DNA from: an uncultured Vogesella sp.
GTDB taxonomy: Bacteria; Pseudomonadota; Gammaproteobacteria; Burkholderiales; Chromobacteriaceae
DNA: 6,252 nt
Assembly (NCBI GenBank): GCA_946479405.1
Contig: CAMLGD010000188.1
Coordinates: forward strand, 1 to 6,252
Direction of reading: 5' to 3'
Positions 390 through 6,006 of the stretch are shown piece after piece. Below the pieces are notes generated by a model that made no database searches, had not been told where the DNA came from, and saw nothing but the letters and a program-made list of their open reading frames with translations. Every line of letters starts with the position of its first letter. Position 1 is the stretch's first letter. The position numbers and the translations under genes are program-made.

Positions 390-872
390 TGCCAGCGTCG
401 CCACCGCGCGCAGCGCGCGCTGCCGGAGCAGCCCGCTGACCGGACGGATCAGATACCAGTACGGCAGAAAACGGTAATAGCTGCCGCGGTCCGGGCAGCA
501 GACCCGCGTCTCGGTGTGCAGCCAGACCCGGTCTGCTGCCAGCGGGCGGATGCTGAAGCTCAATACCAGCCGGGGTACCTGCGTCAGCGCGGTAAAAGCG
601 GCGGCATCCGCCACTGACCGCAGGCCATAATCGCCACGCCAGAAATCACCGGCCAGTCCCCACACGATTTCCTCGCTATTGCACGCCAGCAGGGTGAACT
701 CATGCAGACCAAACGGTGGCCGCTGCGCCAGCGCATTGTGCTGCCCCAGCCGTGCGGCCAACCTGGTCGGCAGCTGCTGCAAGGCACGCATCACCTGCGC
801 GGCGGAGGCAGCGATCTGGCGCTGGTGCCGCTCGGCAAACTGGTATGTCGGCAGGTAGCCGTCGCTCAGCAT
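378..872 (-). CDS. SRPBCC/START-like protein of unknown function
   Basis: This 164-residue protein starts [25 protein letters not shown] (about residues 7-31), with the 'xxFxERHxxxIxAsaaqV' rhythm of helix-grip SRPBCC proteins. It continues with [21 protein letters not shown] (58-78) and [30 protein letters not shown] (121-150). The closing YW..IRP.SG.iR segment is typical of a conserved hypothetical group that is mostly annotated without function. There is no signal peptide or membrane segment, so it is probably cytoplasmic. SRPBCC folds bind hydrophobic ligands, but no ligand can be inferred here. The ATG at 870-872 overlaps the upstream gene's TGA by one base (TGATG) and no Shine-Dalgarno sequence is visible, so translation is probably coupled. 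It is the last gene of a three-gene minus-strand operon. The fold assignment comes from sequence pattern only. Confidence 0.78.
753..762 (+). repeat. Copy of the repeated 10-mer TGCGGCCAAC, inside the SRPBCC-like gene
   Basis: An exact copy. In the host gene's frame it is read on the other strand, giving Leu-Ala-Ala (TTG GCC GCA). Confidence 0.5.
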
Positions 873-1633
873 CAGGGCTGCGGCTGGCTGTGATAGCGGC
901 GGAATACCGCCTCGTAGCGGCCATCCTGCTTCAGGCGGCGCAGGCCGTTGTCAAAATGCTGACGCAGCAACGGATCGCGCCACAGCACGGTGGCCTCTTT
1001 CGGCATCAGCAGCGGGGACAGCGTCACCGGCTGCTGAGCCTGACGCCCCAACTTGCGGCGATACCATTCAAAAATCAGCCGGTCGATCAGAATCACATCG
1101 CAGCGCCCCAGATACAGCGCGCGCACCTGGCTACCCTGGTCGGCCAGCTCGCTGTAATGGCCCCGCGCCTGCGCCAGCAGCCGGTCGTAACCAGTGGGCA
1201 GGTCCGGCTCCGCGCCTTCCCACGCCATCACGCGCAGCTCCTGCATATCCTGCGGCTGCGCCAGTTCCAGCCGCCGCCGCTGCAACGCCACCGCCACGTT
1301 GTCGAAGGTATGCAGCGCCCGGCCGATGGAACCCGGCAGCTGGTAATAACGCTGCAGCGCCGGGGTGACGTCGTACAGCGCATCCACCTCGCCGCGGCGG
1401 TAGGCACTGAGACGGCGGCCGAACGGATAGAACACCGGCTGCATGGCGATGCCTTCGCTGTGCAGCGCCTCGCGCAGCAGTTCCACCGCAATGCCGGGAC
1501 GCCGCTCCACGTTCACCCACGGCGGAATGCTTTCGTAGAATGCCACCTTGACCACATTGTTGGCCGCAGCCAGTGCCGCCGGGAAGCACAGTACGGCCAG
1601 CAGCAAGCGCCGCTTGATGCCTGCCATCGTCAA
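872..1633 (-). CDS. Periplasmic solute-binding protein, family 3 (amino-acid-type), orphan
   Basis: A 253-residue secreted protein. Residues 1-24 form a Sec signal peptide (basic IKRR, then LLLAVLCFPAALAAA) with a likely cut near AAA/NN; there is no lipobox cysteine. The mature part follows the SBP_bac_3 plan: VKVAFYESIPPWV (28-40), the RRLSAYRRGEVDALYDVT segment (73-90), the domain swap around VRALYLGRCDVILIDR (170-185), and a closing DNGLRRLKQDGRYEAVFRRY (228-247). Such proteins bind amino acids or similar small polar solutes, but no permease or ATPase gene lies beside it, so ligand and partner are unknown. The TTG at 1631-1633 has a GAGGTG ribosome binding site about 8 bases upstream and overlaps the MOSC stop (TTGA). 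The ATG at 1625-1627 (251 residues) is the alternative, but its spacing to that site is about 14 bases. Confidence 0.85.
   Translation of the reverse strand: MTMAGIKRRLLLAVLCFPAALAAANNVVKVAFYESIPPWVNVERRPGIAVELLREALHSEGIAMQPVFYPFGRRLSAYRRGEVDALYDVTPALQRYYQLPGSIGRALHTFDNVAVALQRRRLELAQPQDMQELRVMAWEGAEPDLPTGYDRLLAQARGHYSELADQGSQVRALYLGRCDVILIDRLIFEWYRRKLGRQAQQPVTLSPLLMPKEATVLWRDPLLRQHFDNGLRRLKQDGRYEAVFRRYHSQPQP
1559..1568 (-). repeat. Copy of the repeated 10-mer TGCGGCCAAC, inside the solute-binding protein gene
   Basis: An exact copy at the signal-peptide cleavage region. The gene reads it in the sense direction as GCG GCC AAC (Ala-Ala-Asn), a different frame from the other genic copies. Confidence 0.5.
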
Positions 1634-2430
1634 TCGAACGCCACCTCGCTGGCCAGCACCTCCACCGCATCGCCCAGCTGCACGCTACCACTGCTGCGCG
1701 CCACCAGATTGACGCCGAAGCACACCCCTTCCGGCATGCGGCGGTAGCCCATCAGCGTGGCCAGCGGCTGTTTTTCCGTGTGCGGCTGTGCCGTGTGCGG
1801 ATCGATGGTGGTGAAGATGCAGCGAGTGCAACGGCTGACCACCTCGAACTCCACCTCGCCGATGCGCAGCCGCTGCCATTCATCTTCTTCGAACGGAAAC
1901 GCGCCCTGCACCACCAGATTGGGGCGGAACTGGCGCATCGACACCGGCGCCGCCAGGCGCTGGTTGAGATCAGCCAGCGAGGCCTCGCTGATCAGCAGGA
2001 ACGGCGCGCCATCGGCAAACGACAACGGCTGCTCGCTATCCTTGAAGCGGCGCGTGCTTTGCCCCAGCCACAGCAGCAGCACCGGCTCGCCCAGCCAGGC
2101 GCTGAACCAGGCATTAGCCGCCGCATCGCCGGCCAGTGCGGTGAATTCCGATTTCCACACCTGCGCGCGCTGCGGCTGGTTAAAGCCCTCGCTGCTGGTC
2201 TGCAGCGGCGCCACGCCGGGAGCGCGGAACTGCCACTGCGCGCCGGCCAACTGCTCCGCTTCCACCAGCACCAGCTGGTGGTGGGTGCGCGCGGTGATCT
2301 GGCTGCCGTCCGGGCGCACCACCAGCCACACGCGATCGTTGCGCAGCCCCTGCGGAGTGACCTCGGCCTGTTCCACGGCAATACCGCGGCAGGATTTGAG
2401 CGGATGGATATAAAGCTGGCTGAGTTGCAT
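1630..2430 (-). CDS. MOSC-domain molybdenum-cofactor protein, YcbX/mARC-like without ferredoxin domain
   Basis: A 266-residue protein. The N-terminal beta-barrel domain opens MQLSQLYIHPLKSCRGI and continues through GLRNDRVWLVV (about 1-120). The MOSC domain follows, with FRPNLVV (168-174), SRCTRCIFTTIDPHT (199-213) and GVNLVARSSGSVQLGD (239-254). Cys204 in CTRCIFTTIDP fits the cysteine expected to bind molybdenum cofactor; Cys201 lies close by. E. coli YcbX and the mARC enzymes reduce N-hydroxylated compounds. E. coli YcbX carries an extra C-terminal 2Fe-2S domain that is absent here, so a separate electron donor would be needed. The ATG at 2428-2430 is preferred because AAGGG lies 7 bases upstream; the frame is open further upstream as a cysteine-rich stretch (see findings). 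It is the first gene of the operon, and its stop overlaps the start of the solute-binding protein gene. Confidence 0.9.
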   Translation of the reverse strand: MQLSQLYIHPLKSCRGIAVEQAEVTPQGLRNDRVWLVVRPDGSQITARTHHQLVLVEAEQLAGAQWQFRAPGVAPLQTSSEGFNQPQRAQVWKSEFTALAGDAAANAWFSAWLGEPVLLLWLGQSTRRFKDSEQPLSFADGAPFLLISEASLADLNQRLAAPVSMRQFRPNLVVQGAFPFEEDEWQRLRIGEVEFEVVSRCTRCIFTTIDPHTAQPHTEKQPLATLMGYRRMPEGVCFGVNLVARSSGSVQLGDAVEVLASEVAFD

Positions 2431-2685
2431 GCTGCGGCCCTTGCAAAATGGCGTCTGACAAACGGCGGGTTGGCACGGCTGACAACGCCCGTGCGGCGAC
2501 TCGCACTGCCGGCAGCGCACCGGGTTTTGTCAGCCGCTCTTATAGCCGATCTCCCCGCCAAAAGGAATGCCATCGCCGTAAGCGGCGCGATATTCGGTGG
2601 TCAGGCACGGCTTCCCGCCAGCGGGTTTTGCCCGGCAATGGCGCGGGCACGGCCAGATGGCAGCCATCCAGCGGCGTAACAGCAG
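2431..2685. other. Gap between convergently read and operon regions: leader of the MOSC operon
   Basis: No gene here can be supported with confidence. Reading the minus strand towards the MOSC gene, the gap holds a TATAAG box at 2544-2539 and then three TGACAA/TTGTCA words: TTGTCA on plus at 2527-2532, TGACAA on plus at 2480-2485 and again at 2456-2461. The first two extend to a perfect 10-bp inverted pair, CGGCTGACAA at 2476-2485 and TTGTCAGCCG at 2527-2536. The MOSC frame remains open back to a GTG at 2520-2518 and encodes six cysteines in that stretch, but without a ribosome binding site at the GTG. Another minus frame segment, 2530 to about 2664, encodes 45 residues beginning MAAIWPCPRHC and ends at an in-frame TGA. 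Confidence 0.4.
2539..2544 (-). promoter_or_regulatory. Possible -10 box (TATAAG) for the MOSC operon
   Basis: TATAAG on the minus strand matches the sigma-70 -10 consensus at five of six positions and lies about 110 bases before the MOSC start codon. The hexamer 17 bases upstream (TTCCTT) is a poor -35, so this promoter would be weak or need an activator. If it is used, transcription would start near 2532 and the TTGTCA words would lie in the leader. Confidence 0.28.
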
Positions 2686-2709
2686 ACTGCGGCCAACGTT
2701 GGCCGCAGT
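2686..2709 (-). terminator. Perfect 24-bp palindrome after the symporter gene; probable terminator hairpin
   Basis: ACTGCGGCCAAC (2686-2697) is followed immediately by its exact reverse complement (2698-2709). It starts two bases after the TAG of the symporter-like gene on the minus strand. As RNA it can fold into a GC-rich stem of about 10 pairs with a four-base loop. Neither side has a run of T, so it is not a canonical intrinsic terminator, but its position directly after the stop codon suits an end of transcription or a 3'-end stabiliser. It also consists of two copies of TGCGGCCAAC, the word repeated across this window. Confidence 0.6.
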
Positions 2710-2711
2710 GC

Positions 2712-3674
2712 CTAGCGTGGCTGCCGGCGGTAGCGTTGCGCCAGCAGCGCGCACACCATCAGCTGCAGCTGGTGGAACAGCATCAGCGGCAGCACGATGG
2801 CGCCGATGGCATGGCCGGCAAACAGCACCTTGGCCAGCGGCACCCCGCTGGCCAGGCTCTTCTTCGAACCGCAGAACACGATGGTGATCTCATCGGCCCG
2901 CGTGAATCCCAGCTGGCGGCTGGCCAGCCGCGTCAGCCCCAGCGCCAGCGCCAGCAGCAGCGCGCAGGCCAGCAGCAGGCCGCCCAGCGCCGGCAGCGGT
3001 GTGGCTTGCCACAGGCCGCCGATCACCGCCGCACTGAACGCGGTATACACCACCAGCAGGATCGAGCCCTGATCCACCAGCTTGAGCCGGCCCTTATGGC
3101 GATCCACCCAACCGCCCAGCCACGGCCGCAGCAACTGGCCGGCGACAAACGGCAGCAGCAGCTGGTAGACGATGGCCAGCGCCGACGCGCCGCTATGCCC
3201 TGCCTCGCCGGCCAGCAGCAGCCAGCCCACCAGCAGCGGTGTCAGTGCAATGCCCAACAGGTTGGAGGCGGTGGCACTGCAGATCGCTGCCGGCACATTG
3301 CCTTCCGCCACCGACACGAAGGCGATCGACGACTGCACCGTGGACGGCAACAGGCACAGGTACAGCAGTCCCAGATACAGCTCCGGGGTGGTCAGGCCGA
3401 CGAGCAACGGCTGCAGCACCACCCCCAGCAGCGGAAACAGCACGAAGGTGGCCGCCAGCACCAGCAGGTGCAGCCGCCAGTGGGTGATGCCGGCCAGCAC
3501 CGCCTGCCGCGACAGCTTGGCACCATGCAGGAAGAACAGCAGGCCGATGGCGGCATCGGTCAGCCATGCCAGCCAGCGCGCGGCCTCGCCACTGCATGGC
3601 AGCAGGCTGGCCAGCAGCACGCTGCCAAGCAGGCCGAGGGTGAAATTGTCGGGAATAAAACGCGGACGTTGCAT
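2712..3674 (-). CDS. Bile acid:sodium symporter-like membrane protein (YfeH/SBF-like)
   Basis: A 320-residue, very hydrophobic protein with about nine or ten membrane helices, for example 13-25, 41-50, 67-92, 100-121, 128-153, 166-182, 204-222, 228-248, 266-285 and 288-312. It carries the marks of the SBF-like (YfeH, eukaryotic SLC10A7) group: FFLHGAKLSRQA (47-58), CLLPSTVQSSIAFVSVAEGN (107-126), SATASNLLGIALTPLL (133-148) and FCGSKKSLASGVPLAKV (267-283). The substrate of bacterial members is poorly defined; sodium-coupled uptake of an organic anion is the family expectation. The ATG at 3672-3674 is chosen because AGGA lies five bases before it; a TTG at 3698 would add eight residues without such a site. 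It is transcribed divergently from a LysR regulator, as yfeH is from yfeR in enterobacteria, and ends at a perfect palindrome. Confidence 0.9.
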   Translation of the reverse strand: MQRPRFIPDNFTLGLLGSVLLASLLPCSGEAARWLAWLTDAAIGLLFFLHGAKLSRQAVLAGITHWRLHLLVLAATFVLFPLLGVVLQPLLVGLTTPELYLGLLYLCLLPSTVQSSIAFVSVAEGNVPAAICSATASNLLGIALTPLLVGWLLLAGEAGHSGASALAIVYQLLLPFVAGQLLRPWLGGWVDRHKGRLKLVDQGSILLVVYTAFSAAVIGGLWQATPLPALGGLLLACALLLALALGLTRLASRQLGFTRADEITIVFCGSKKSLASGVPLAKVLFAGHAIGAIVLPLMLFHQLQLMVCALLAQRYRRQPR

Positions 3675-3733
3675 ATGGATCCTGTCTGCCGCCGGCAAGC
3701 AATGGCGCAGGCCGGCACTGCCTATCTACTGAA

Positions 3734-3743
3734 TGCGGCCAAC
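3734..3743 (+). repeat. Copy of the repeated 10-mer TGCGGCCAAC, intergenic
   Basis: An exact copy of TGCGGCCAAC in the gap between the divergent symporter-like and LysR genes. Because it is non-coding, codon use cannot explain it. See the finding on the repeated word. Confidence 0.6.
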
Positions 3744-3789
3744 CCCTGGCGGGCAACCGCAACGGCCGCTATTTCACCGCGCCGCGATC

Positions 3790-3795
3790 TACAAT
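3790..3795 (+). promoter_or_regulatory. Possible -10 box (TACAAT) for the LysR gene
   Basis: TACAAT differs from TATAAT at one position and lies 38 bases before the LysR start codon. No good -35 is present at 16-18 bases upstream; the nearest similar hexamer, TTCACC at 3773-3778, is only 11 bases away. A start of transcription near 3802 would place the direct repeats at 3800-3828 over the initial transcribed region, which would suit autorepression. Confidence 0.28.
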
Positions 3796-3799
3796 ACAA

Positions 3800-3828
3800 A
3801 TTCATTTATCTCATTGATTGATTCATTT
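3800..3828. promoter_or_regulatory. AT-rich direct repeats 21 bp apart in the LysR/symporter gap; candidate operator
   Basis: ATTCATTT occurs at 3800-3807 and again at 3821-3828, exactly 21 bases apart, which places both on the same helix face. Between them is ATC-N5-GAT (3808-3818), a small dyad of the kind seen within LysR-type binding sites, and ATGAAT at 3834-3839 is an inverted match to ATTCAT. The block is strikingly AT-rich against GC-rich surroundings and touches the LysR start codon. LysR regulators usually bind in the gap shared with a divergent target, so this is the best operator candidate here; binding itself is inferred. Confidence 0.4.
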
Positions 3829-3833
3829 CTGCG

Positions 3834-4736
3834 ATGAATATCACCCTGCGCCAGCTGCGCGCCTTTCTGGCCGTCAGCCAGCACGGCGGTTTTGGCCGCG
3901 CCGGCGACCGCGTCGGCCTGACCCAATCCGCCATCAGCCGCAGCATCCGCGAGCTGGAAGAACAACTGGGCCTGCGGCTGCTGGACCGCACCACCCGCGA
4001 GGTGCTGCTCACCGCCAGCGGCCAGCGGCTGAGCGCCCAGCTCACCCGCGTGCTGGACGAGCTGGATGGCGTACTGGCCGAGGCGCGCCAGGCCGGCGAA
4101 CAGGCCAAGGGCACGGTGCGGGTGGCCAGCAGCCCTACCCTGTCCGCCAGCCTGATGCCGGCCTGCCTGGCCGCCTGCGGCCAACGTTATCCCCAGGTGC
4201 AGCTGCAGATACTGGACCAGGTGCAGCGGCTGAACCTCGACAGCGTGCTGTCCGGCGAAGTGGATTTCGGCCTGGTGGTGGACCCGCGCGCCCACCCGGG
4301 GCTGGAAGGCGAGGTGGTGCTCAGCGACCCATTCTGCCTGGTACTGCGGCCGGATCATCCGCTGGCGGCGCAACCCGACGTGCACTGGCGGCAGCTGCAG
4401 GATGCGCCGCTGGTACTGCTGGACGGCAACAGTGGCAGCCGGCCGCTGATCGAGGCCGCACTGGCGGCGCAGGGCGTGACGGCGCAAGTGGTGCAGCAGC
4501 TGGGCCACTCCAGCGCGGTGTTCCGCGTGGTGGAGGCCGGCATCGGCATCAGCGTGTCGCCACGGCTGGCGCTGCCACTGCCGGCTGGCAGCCAGCTCAC
4601 CGTGCGGCCGCTGTTGCCGCAGATCCGCCGCGACGTGATGCTGGTACGCCGTGCCGGACGCTCACTGTCGCCGCTGGCAGAAAAGGTGTGGCAGCTGATG
4701 CGTGAGGTGCTGCTGGCAGACGACCAGCAGAATTAA
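3834..4736 (+). CDS. LysR-type transcriptional regulator, probable regulator of the divergent symporter-like gene
   Basis: A 300-residue protein of standard LysR length. Residues 1-60 form the winged helix-turn-helix: MNITLRQLRAFLAVSQHGGF, then RAGDRVGLTQSAISRSIREL, then LEEQLGLRLLDRTTREVLLT. A linker helix (about 65-90) follows. The effector domain starts near KGTVRVASSPTLSASLMP (92-109), where the SSPTLSASLMP segment is the usual first ligand-contact strand, and runs to about residue 290. The ATG at 3834 is the natural start for the HTH, although no Shine-Dalgarno sequence is visible and the region before it is AT-rich repeats. The gene is divergent from the symporter-like gene, the same arrangement as yfeR/yfeH, where YfeR has been reported to act on yfeH in Salmonella. 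Control of the neighbour here is inferred from that layout; the effector is unknown. Confidence 0.93.
   Translation: MNITLRQLRAFLAVSQHGGFGRAGDRVGLTQSAISRSIRELEEQLGLRLLDRTTREVLLTASGQRLSAQLTRVLDELDGVLAEARQAGEQAKGTVRVASSPTLSASLMPACLAACGQRYPQVQLQILDQVQRLNLDSVLSGEVDFGLVVDPRAHPGLEGEVVLSDPFCLVLRPDHPLAAQPDVHWRQLQDAPLVLLDGNSGSRPLIEAALAAQGVTAQVVQQLGHSSAVFRVVEAGIGISVSPRLALPLPAGSQLTVRPLLPQIRRDVMLVRRAGRSLSPLAEKVWQLMREVLLADDQQN
4176..4185 (+). repeat. Copy of the repeated 10-mer TGCGGCCAAC, inside the LysR gene
   Basis: An exact copy, read as TGC GGC CAA C (Cys-Gly-Gln). Together with the preceding C and the following GTT it matches 14 bases of the palindrome's left side (2687-2700). Confidence 0.5.
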
Positions 4737-4746
4737 TCGCAACAAG

Positions 4747-4756
4747 GTTGGCCGCA
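4747..4756 (-). repeat. Copy of the repeated 10-mer TGCGGCCAAC, intergenic
   Basis: An exact copy on the minus strand, 10 bases after the LysR stop codon. It is followed by a very GC-rich segment (4757-4780) that could fold weakly, for example through the short dyad GCCGCGCGGC, but no clear terminator with a T run is seen. Confidence 0.6.
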
Positions 4757-4796
4757 AGCTGCCGGCCGCGCGGCGGCAAGGCAAAGCGCCGGCAGG

Positions 4797-4802
4797 TACA
4801 AT
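4797..4802 (+). promoter_or_regulatory. Possible -10 box (TACAAT) for the 78-residue protein gene
   Basis: TACAAT, one base off the sigma-70 consensus, lies 54 bases upstream of the next start codon and is the only AT-leaning hexamer in a GC-rich gap. No recognisable -35 lies 16-18 bases upstream (GGCAAG is at 16). The call rests on this one element. Confidence 0.3.
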
Positions 4803-4856
4803 CCGCCAATCACCCGACTCGCCGGCCCGATAGCCGGCATCGACAGGAATCCCGCC

Positions 4857-5093
4857 ATGTGGTTTGAAGACCGCCCGCCACCGCAGTGGCTGCCCTATAC
4901 CCTGCCGGACGGCAGCAGCCTGCAGGTGCCGGAGCTGATCGTGCGCGGCGACGACGCCGGCCAGCCCGGCTGGCAGCTGCGCTTTGGCGAATGGACCTTC
5001 TTTGCCGATGGCGCCGCTAGCGACGGTGCCGCCCAGGCGCTGGCGCTGGCGATCGCGGAAATGGAAGAACGCATCGCCTATCGCGGCAAGTAA
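4857..5093 (+). CDS. Small conserved-looking protein of unknown function (78 residues)
   Basis: The start ATG has an AGGA site eight bases upstream (4845-4848), and codon use matches its neighbours, so this is very probably a real gene. The protein is acidic and soluble, with no signal peptide, membrane helix or cysteines. It opens MWFEDRPPPQWLPYTLPDG and continues with LQVPELIVRGDDAGQPGWQLRFGEWTFFADG, a pattern of short strands rich in Trp/Phe that suggests a small beta-sheet domain. It closes with an amphipathic helix, AAQALALAIAEMEERIAYRGK (about 58-78). I do not recognise the family and assign no function. It stands alone: LysR lies upstream on the same strand with a 120-base gap, and the AraC-type gene converges from the right. 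Confidence 0.75.
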   Translation: MWFEDRPPPQWLPYTLPDGSSLQVPELIVRGDDAGQPGWQLRFGEWTFFADGAASDGAAQALALAIAEMEERIAYRGK

Positions 5094-5095
5094 GC

Positions 5096-5114
5096 CGCCC
5101 GCGGCCAGCGGGCG
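5096..5114 (+). terminator. GC hairpin after the 78-residue protein gene
   Basis: CGCCCGC (5096-5102) pairs exactly with GCGGGCG (5108-5114) around a five-base loop, GGCCA, beginning three bases after the TAA. There is no T run after it (ATGGCG follows), so it would be a weak intrinsic terminator or a 3'-end stem. The remaining gap to 5217 shows no gene. Confidence 0.4.
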
Positions 5115-5201
5115 ATGGCGCTCAGCGGCTTGGTCGGGAGCGACAAATCATCCCGGCCGATGCTGACTACAACGCGTGGCCCGGTTTGCCGTTGAATACC
5201 A

Positions 5202-5210
5202 GCGGCCAAC
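5202..5210 (+). repeat. 9-mer core GCGGCCAAC, intergenic
   Basis: The core of the repeated word, preceded by A instead of T. It lies eight bases from the AraC-type stop codon, within the convergent gap, and overlaps a weak dyad (GCCA-GGT-TGGC on the minus strand). A role at the 3' end is possible but not shown. Confidence 0.45.
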
Positions 5211-5217
5211 CTGGCGG

Positions 5218-6006
5218 CTATTCCTCAGCCTCGCCGCCAAAGAACACACTGGGCACCACGCCGAACTGACGACGGAACATAGCGGTAAACGCGCTGGGGC
5301 TGGCATAGCCGGCGTCCAGCGCCACATCCAGCACCCGCGCGCCGGCAGCCAGCTGCGCCAGCGCCTGCATCAGCCTTGCCTGCCGCCGCCAGGCACCGAA
5401 ATTCATGCCGGTGGCGCGCACGAAGCGGCGCTGCAGCGTACGCACATCCACGCCCAGCCATGCTGCCCAGTCATCGCTGCTGCGGCTGTCGTCCGGCTGC
5501 GCCTGCAGCGCGCGGCATAGCGGCGCCAGCAAGTCGTCGTCCGGCGTCGGCAGCGCCAGCGGCAGGGTTTCCAGCACCTCCACCTCCTCCAGCAGCAGCG
5601 CCAGCAGGCGCGCGGCACGGGTGCCCGGCAGTACCGGCGGCGGGCAGCGCACCGCGGCCAACAGCAGCTCGCGCCACAGCGGCGTCACCGCCAGCACGCA
5701 GCAATGGTCCGGCATGCCGGCCAACGCCGCCGGCTGCACGTAGACGCTGCGCATCAACGCCGGACTCAGCATGTGCACCTCATGCCAGTGGCCGGGCGGG
5801 ATGTAGATGGCGCGCGTCGGCGGCACGATCCACTGCCCGCGCGCGGTGATCACCCGCATCACCCCGCTGGTGCCGTAGATCAGCTGCGCGGTGCGGTGGG
5901 TGTGGCGCACGGTGGCGTGGCCGGCCGGGTAGTCCTGCGCCTTGCCTATCATCAGCGTGTCGCTGGTGAGCTGCGGTGGCTCGATCAGCTCGATGTCTGC
6001 ACTCAT
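5218..6006 (-). CDS. AraC-family regulator with N-terminal cupin domain (NimR-like)
   Basis: A 262-residue protein. Residues 15-95 form a cupin-type effector domain with RHTHRTAQLIYGTSGVMRV (34-52) and YIPPGHWHEV (68-77). The HxH at 35-37 and His75 are where cupins of this group place possible metal or ligand contacts. The C-terminal pair of helix-turn-helices is clear: DWAAWLGVDVRTLQRRFVRATG (179-200) with FGAWRRQARL after it, and VLDVALDAGYASPSAFTAMFRRQFGVVPSVFF (225-256). The layout resembles E. coli NimR (YeaM), which controls a neighbouring exporter gene, but the ligand and targets here are unknown. The ATG at 6004-6006 has a GAGA site about nine bases upstream; the frame stays open to 6087 but the extra part does not look like cupin. 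The gene is divergent from the truncated gene at 6200. Confidence 0.93.
   Translation of the reverse strand: MSADIELIEPPQLTSDTLMIGKAQDYPAGHATVRHTHRTAQLIYGTSGVMRVITARGQWIVPPTRAIYIPPGHWHEVHMLSPALMRSVYVQPAALAGMPDHCCVLAVTPLWRELLLAAVRCPPPVLPGTRAARLLALLLEEVEVLETLPLALPTPDDDLLAPLCRALQAQPDDSRSSDDWAAWLGVDVRTLQRRFVRATGMNFGAWRRQARLMQALAQLAAGARVLDVALDAGYASPSAFTAMFRRQFGVVPSVFFGGEAEE
5654..5662 (+). repeat. 9-mer core GCGGCCAAC, inside the AraC-type gene
   Basis: The core of the repeated word, preceded by C. The gene runs on the other strand and reads TTG GCC GCG as Leu-Ala-Ala. Confidence 0.4.

Follow-up and report, generated by a model that had tools for sequence, protein, structure and literature searches.

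A candidate DNA-uptake-sequence-like word of the Vogesella group and its sister words in the Chromobacteriaceae

The 10-mer GTTGGCCGCA was studied in a 6,252-nucleotide stretch of DNA from an uncultured Vogesella sp. (contig CAMLGD010000188.1), here called the window, and in genomes of its relatives. With a probability of roughly 87%, the word is a DNA uptake sequence (DUS)-like signal of the Vogesella group. By analogy with Neisseria, which has a related but different word, its most likely role is in the recognition and uptake of DNA from kin cells. The Neisseriaceae are the best-known case of self-specific DNA uptake through a pilus receptor, and Vogesella is placed in the Neisseriales, family Chromobacteriaceae, in the NCBI taxonomy. 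An earlier note on the window had suggested that a relative of the Neisseriaceae may carry here an uptake or other genome-wide signal. The uptake reading was supported by genome-wide counts, the lack of a replication-strand bias, the placement between genes and in inverted pairs, the scarcity of the word in two stretches with defence genes, an AG prefix, the presence of sister dialects and a ComP-like minor pilin in the Vogesella-group genomes. New is a group of DUS-like dialects in the Chromobacteriaceae, which by the same analogy would work like DUS. The distribution of the word and of its dialects was observed directly. All genome-wide statistics on the word come from relatives of the window's organism.

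Abundance, form and placement of the word

A look into related genomes, as suggested in the earlier note, found the word in abundance in 13 of the 61 family genomes. TGCGGCCAAC is the same word and is read here as GTTGGCCGCA. Each of the 13 genomes had 1871-2895 exact copies, compared to 4-14 copies of the reversed word used as control, and the other 48 genomes had 8-58 copies. The 13 genomes are referred to as the Vogesella group; G001, G002 and G003 are named Vogesella, G062 is probably Vogesella sp. LIG4, with which it shares its ComP protein, and the other nine were assigned on the basis of the word and of the ComP tree described below. Counts were 2273 for V. oryzae, 1871 for V. urethralis and 2283 for V. 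aquatica (reversed word 13, 14 and 7), and 15 and 18 for Formivibrio citricus and strain TC5R-5 (control 15 and 3). Among 200 genomes sampled across the order, the count was high only in G001, G055 and G057, all of which belong to the 13, and was at most 52 in the others.

GTTGGCCGCA was the top 10-mer in samples from V. aquatica (400 kb) and V. oryzae (385 kb). It was found 252 and 256 times, whereas an order-4 Markov model predicted 6.1 and 6.2 copies, an excess of about 41-fold. The excess was 19- and 15-fold at order 5 and 7- and 5-fold at order 6, an order at which the word itself feeds the model. Words of the same composition averaged about 3 copies in these samples, and the best non-overlapping GGCC word of equal composition reached 46. 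A count near the Markov expectation, or one like that of equally composed GGCC words, had been named in the earlier note as speaking against its inference; in the relatives the counts were far above both. The word as a product of base composition or codon usage in a GC-rich genome would agree with the 67% GC of the window and with the commonness of GGCC-rich words in such genomes. This explanation was refuted by the genome counts of the reversed word together with the Markov and same-composition results, and its probability is close to nil. The word is also read in several reading frames and has many intergenic copies. As a separate observation, poly-C runs were strongly over-represented in the V. 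oryzae stretches L141-L160 (CCCCCCCCCC, 86 counts including overlaps compared to 0.4 expected) and could be phase-variable tracts or an assembly effect.

The consensus of the Vogesella-group signal is 5'-AG-GTTGGCCGCA-3', in which the 10-mer is strict and the AG is semi-conserved. Nine positions of GTTGGCCGCA are nearly strict, and tolerance was found at position 10 (C, G, T) in V. aquatica and V. oryzae. The tolerance was lower in G062, where the C and G variants had 9 and 17 copies, compared to 71 and 59 in V. oryzae and 41 and 51 in V. aquatica. The two bases directly upstream were A (-2) and G (-1), each at 0.54-0.62; the preference for C at -4 and A at -3 was less pronounced.

Placement was analyzed in samples of V. 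aquatica (252 copies), V. oryzae (256 copies) and G062 (286 copies). Intergenic copies numbered 94, 113 and 109, respectively (37-44%), compared to 13-16% of control words of the same composition (P <1e-11 in each sample), and the density of the word was 2.2-3.3 times higher between genes. The shares were obtained with a custom gene finder, which probably overlooks small genes, an effect the control words guard against. The density per kb was 3.3 in convergent gaps and 0.45 in divergent gaps in V. oryzae, 3.1 and 0.82 in G062, and 1.16 and 0.87 in V. aquatica. Inverted pairs with a gap of at most 20 bases numbered 7, 25 and 21, and 6, 22 and 20 of these were intergenic. Of the features that the earlier note had suggested testing, the enrichment in gaps was observed in all three samples, and inverted pairs were present in each.

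Inverted pairs can form hairpins and may also help to end transcription, and the word could be mainly a transcription terminator or 3'-end stem-loop element. The mostly intergenic position of the pairs fits such an element, as do the 3' neighbour genes of intergenic copies, about half of which end within 60 bp (57/103, 78/132 and 60/128). At least five T were found in the 10-base flank of 2/7, 7/25 and 2/21 pairs, compared to 5-7% at random places, and the 20-bp palindrome at 2688..2707 of the window, folded as RNA, gives an 8-bp stem with a 4-base loop at -14.4 kcal/mol. However, the pairs hold a minority of the copies (at most 14/252, 50/256 and 42/286), 56-63% of the copies lie inside genes, and a terminator requires a stem but not one exact sequence. 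Terminator use of the inverted pairs is plausible but weakly supported, and a terminator as the main role of the word is very unlikely.

Chi, KOPS and matS are types of signals for replication, segregation or recombination, and a signal of this kind would account for the very high copy number and the strict sequence along the chromosome. Against it stands the absence of a leading/lagging bias, the orientation relative to GC skew being 150 vs 136 (P 0.44), and the presence of 10-21 copies in 18 of 20 stretches distributed along the G062 chromosome. The strong intergenic preference and the last bases of the word, which vary among genomes of one family as described below, also argue against such a signal, which is considered less likely still than a terminator.

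The other two G062 stretches contained 1 and 2 copies. These word-poor stretches, L224 (630-650 kb) and L226 (1050-1070 kb), are low in GC (54% and 53%) and have ordinary genes (BacA, GyrB) at their edges. One encodes BrxB- and BrxC-type (BREX-like) proteins, a serine recombinase and a RepB-type protein, and the other has type I restriction genes together with genes for proteins with GmrSD and Fic domains. In V. oryzae, a low-GC stretch contained 3 copies. Two word-poor stretches with defence genes are a small number, but such stretches would be expected if transformation of core genes spreads the word.

Aligned positions of the word were kept more often than other 10-mers in 11 of 11 partly overlapping comparisons. 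Between V. aquatica and V. oryzae the word was kept at 31 of 90 positions, compared to a background of 0.163 (P 2e-5), and between V. aquatica and G062 at 6 of 23, compared to 0.099. Further comparisons gave 10/14 vs 0.337 and 21/26 vs 0.49.

Sister words and a ComP-like minor pilin

To screen for dialects, a single stretch was taken per family genome; of these 61 stretches, 15 were under 20 kb and one was just 4.9 kb. GTTGGCCGCA was the first word in 12 of the 13 Vogesella-group genomes and the second in G002, behind an overlapping word. Sister words were on top in some other family genomes. Whole-genome copies of GTTGGCCGAA amounted to 2168 in G041, 1851 in G049, 1368 in G015, 1245 in G042, 1104 in G050, 893 in G052 and 579 in G040, with 183 in G051 and at most 78 in other family genomes. 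In a sample of 399 genomes of the order, GTTGGCCGAA was high only in G015 and G042, both Chromobacteriaceae, and reached at most 47 in the others. GTTGGCCGAG was found 1940 times in G038, 1590 times in G039, 165 times in G040 and at most 92 times elsewhere in the family. Abundant DUS-like words were thereby observed in 22 of the 61 family genomes (13 with GTTGGCCGCA, 7 with GTTGGCCGAA and 2 with GTTGGCCGAG). A at -2 and G at -1 also precede GTTGGCCGAA and GTTGGCCGAG (61 and 22 copies). The last base is A in GTTGGCCGCA and GTTGGCCGAA and G in GTTGGCCGAG, the word of G038 and G039.

G051 has a strong ComP match and groups with the GAA carriers G050 and G052 in the RecA tree, yet contains only the 183 copies given above; its dialect may be decaying. 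A further dialect, GTTGGCCGAC, was hinted at by a few copies in G051 and was rejected, as 9-107 copies in 20 genomes were accompanied by 12-64 copies of the reversed controls. Two other words were noticed in the screen. TCAGGGTAAA was the top word in L205 of G037, with 6 copies in 20 kb, and ranked within the first four in L180 of G036 (4 copies); neither genome has a clear ComP, and the word could be another repeat family. The palindrome TCGCCGGCGA was the top word in L182, L184, L179, L206 and L176 (G016, G020, G021, G026 and G028), with 3-4 sites per stretch, each counted twice.

The earlier note had suggested looking for a ComP-like minor pilin, and a match was found in all 13 Vogesella-group genomes. 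The query was an alignment of seven ComP-like C-terminal parts, and matches with E <1e-13 were obtained in 57 of the 61 family genomes, seven of which had supplied the query alignment. All 22 word carriers were among the 57. Across genomes, no significant association between the presence of ComP and the presence of the word was found (P 0.29). The three best PDB matches of the V. aquatica protein were ComP structures, and ComP was the closest solved pilin by sequence for both proteins tested (V. aquatica and G041). For a structure model of the protein from a close relative, the top two Foldseek matches were ComP, a type IV pilin fold. The relationship of the minor pilin to ComP was shown by sequence and by one model. 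Exactly two cysteines after residue 30, forming a C-terminal pair, were found in 12 of the 13 Vogesella-group proteins; the G062 protein has two extra cysteines, the first located in the N-terminal helix and the second in the soluble part that continues this helix. In a tree of 26 ComP-like sequences all 13 Vogesella-group genomes were joined at 100/99. Of the 39 loci from which the sequences were taken, 13 in which a simple motif was lacking were dropped, and the start is missing from the G048 sequence.

The Pfam family ComP_DUS (PF16732) was rejected as a marker of the receptor. It had matches in every one of the 61 family genomes, with 60 of them over the cut-off, and in none of the 14 controls, and its best match in all 13 Vogesella-group genomes was a pilin gene other than the ComP-like one. 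For V. aquatica, the best-match protein resembled PilA and PilE in the PDB and not ComP. Annotation by PF16732 can therefore mislead in the Vogesella group.

A site for an abundant housekeeping DNA-binding protein or methyltransferase would be compatible with the counts alone and with the strict 9-bp core. Uptake fits better with the scarcity of the word in the two defence-gene stretches, with dialects having a common AG prefix and with a ComP-like match in 22 of 22 carriers. Of the possible non-uptake functions, the housekeeping site is given the smallest chance. As in Neisseria, ComP on the pilus would bind the word in free DNA, and this binding would favour uptake of kin DNA. For Neisseria it has been proposed that repeated uptake and recombination disperse and maintain such a word across the core genome, and the same could apply here.

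The ComP-like match in 57 and the DUS-like words in 22 of the 61 genomes offer natural pairs of receptor and word in which a core base is altered. Two questions thereby become testable in an environmental genus, namely the reading of DNA by ComP and the way in which dialects change. A practical hint is that tagged linear DNA may transform Vogesella. V. indigofera OSW_575 is an environmental strain open to genetic work, with gene deletion through allelic exchange and conjugative plasmid transfer described in PMC12826045.

Copies of the word in the window

The earlier note had listed seven 10-mers starting at 753, 1559, 2688, 2698, 3734, 4176 and 4747 (1559, 2698 and 4747 as minus in its reading), and exactly these were found again. 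Its two further 9-mer cores at 5202 and 5654 were confirmed; the one-mismatch 10-mers start at 5201 and 5653. In the following list the strand is that on which GTTGGCCGCA reads, and L001, L005 and L009 are aligned stretches.

753..762, minus strand: exact copy with AG prefix within gene 378-872, in the Leu-Ala-Ala frame; with the same sequence at this position in L001, L005 and L009
1559..1568, plus strand: exact copy within the solute-binding-protein-like gene 872-1627 (Ala-Ala-Asn); not kept in L001, L005 and L009
2688..2697, minus strand: exact copy, left arm of a perfect 20-bp inverted pair, intergenic
2698..2707, plus strand: exact copy, right arm of the 20-bp inverted pair, intergenic; pair also in the L001 alignment
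3734..3743, minus strand: exact copy in the gap from which the transporter and LysR-family genes diverge; absent at this place in L001, L005 and L009
4176..4185, minus strand: exact copy, read as Cys-Gly-Gln within the LysR-family gene 3834-4736; unchanged in L001, L005 and L009
4747..4756, plus strand: exact copy with AG prefix, 10 bases past the stop codon of the LysR-family gene; identical in the L001 alignment
5201..5210, minus strand: position-10 variant GTTGGCCGCT with AG prefix, intergenic; a tolerated variant type, exact word in V. oryzae
5653..5662, minus strand: position-10 variant GTTGGCCGCG within the AraC-family gene 5218-6006; a tolerated variant type

The inverted pair starts 4 bases past the end of the transporter gene 2712-3674. 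By the gene calls made here, the copies at 2688, 2698, 3734, 4747 and 5201 are intergenic, which gives the five of nine claimed before, and the share of gaps in the window, claimed as about 15%, agrees with arithmetic from the same calls. The frames given for the genic copies at 753, 1559 and 4176 likewise match the translations. With at most one mismatch, 9 matches were found in the window, compared to a mean of 1.27 in 200 dinucleotide shuffles, none of which reached 9. Under the order-4 background of V. aquatica, the Poisson probability of at least 7 copies in 6252 bases is about 1e-11, and the genome rate of V. oryzae predicts about 4 copies for a stretch of this size. How many of the window copies are kept in place varied with the alignment used: V. 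oryzae had 5 of the 7 unchanged in one alignment and 3 of 7 in another.

The gene content of the window looks ordinary, comprising the end of an FAD oxidoreductase, a 164-residue protein, a solute-binding-type protein that scores just under the Pfam cut-off, a MOSC protein, an SBF-like transporter, a LysR protein, a 78-residue protein with no Pfam match and an AraC protein. Among the genome contigs searched, the transporter had the highest protein identity to V. oryzae (91%), followed by V. urethralis and V. aquatica (80%). The window DNA aligned with V. oryzae over 5.8 kb at 81%.

Comparison with known uptake systems

According to the 2013 survey, all eight published DUS dialects share C+6, T+7 and G+8 and have A at +10, and no obvious DUS was seen in Laribacter, Lutiella, Pseudogulbenkiania and two Chromobacterium genomes. 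The same 2013 paper dates the emergence of DUS to the time after C. violaceum had branched off, and by BLAST it found no ComP in that species. In PMC full text nothing was found on Vogesella together with an uptake sequence, nor an experiment on an uptake function of the word, and a search by the letters of the words gave no title on DNA uptake among the matches listed. The ComP-modelling paper PMC12061091 mentions neither Chromobacteriaceae nor Vogesella.

The ComP matches and the dialects suggest that a DUS-type signal is older than the 2013 placement and that the word was lost in several lineages. An alternative history is a transfer of comP between families. The RecA tree (29 of 30 genomes; G014 had no usable RecA) was too weak to settle the history, because carriers were scattered and G015 was placed with non-carriers. 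Its six Vogesella-group genomes were not one clade and many forks were weak. A wider scenario, to which we give even odds, is that the ComP/DUS system predates the Neisseriaceae and has two grammars, a CTG core with a two-disulfide ComP in the Neisseriaceae and a CCG core with a one-disulfide ComP in the Chromobacteriaceae. The second would have at least three dialects (GAA, GCA and GAG), GAA probably being ancestral, and the signal would have been lost several times while ComP was kept.

The Vogesella-group word is like the AG-type DUS (AG-DUS, simDUS and mucDUS) in being a 10-12-mer with about 2000 copies per genome on both strands, with a semi-conserved AG at -2/-1 and with G at +1, C at +6 and G at +8. 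A at +10 is found in two of the three Chromobacteriaceae words (GTTGGCCGCA and GTTGGCCGAA), and inverted pairs between genes are likewise a DUS feature. The A/C difference at +9 between Chromobacteriaceae words parallels kingDUS vs king3DUS. Variants in the Vogesella group cluster at a peripheral base, as in the meningococcal genome, where PMC3868556 gives 72% of one-base DUS variants at such a base. Aligned by the AG prefix, AGGTTGGCCGAA agrees with simDUS and mucDUS at 9 of 12 positions, a score that 184 of 20000 shuffles equalled in any register, and for AGGTTGGCCGCA the score was 8 of 12, equalled by 1469 of 20000. The similarity of the bare 10-mers to known DUS was not significant.

Three differences were found, the first two of which weigh against the interpretation as a DUS-like uptake signal. 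The core is CCG, and not the CTG of the Neisseriaceae DUS, in all three words, and the T+7 (CTG-core) form had 3, 3 and 2 copies in the three samples, which is chance level. Neisseria ComP has four cysteines, whose two disulfides form the DD region involved in DNA binding according to PMC4906244, whereas the protein described here has one C-terminal cysteine pair. The host family, Chromobacteriaceae, is also unlike that of known DUS. As a short genome-wide uptake word, GTTGGCCGCA would further resemble the uptake signal sequence of the Pasteurellaceae. Because of the CCG core and the single C-terminal cysteine pair of ComP, the word is called DUS-like and is not filed as a Neisseriaceae DUS.

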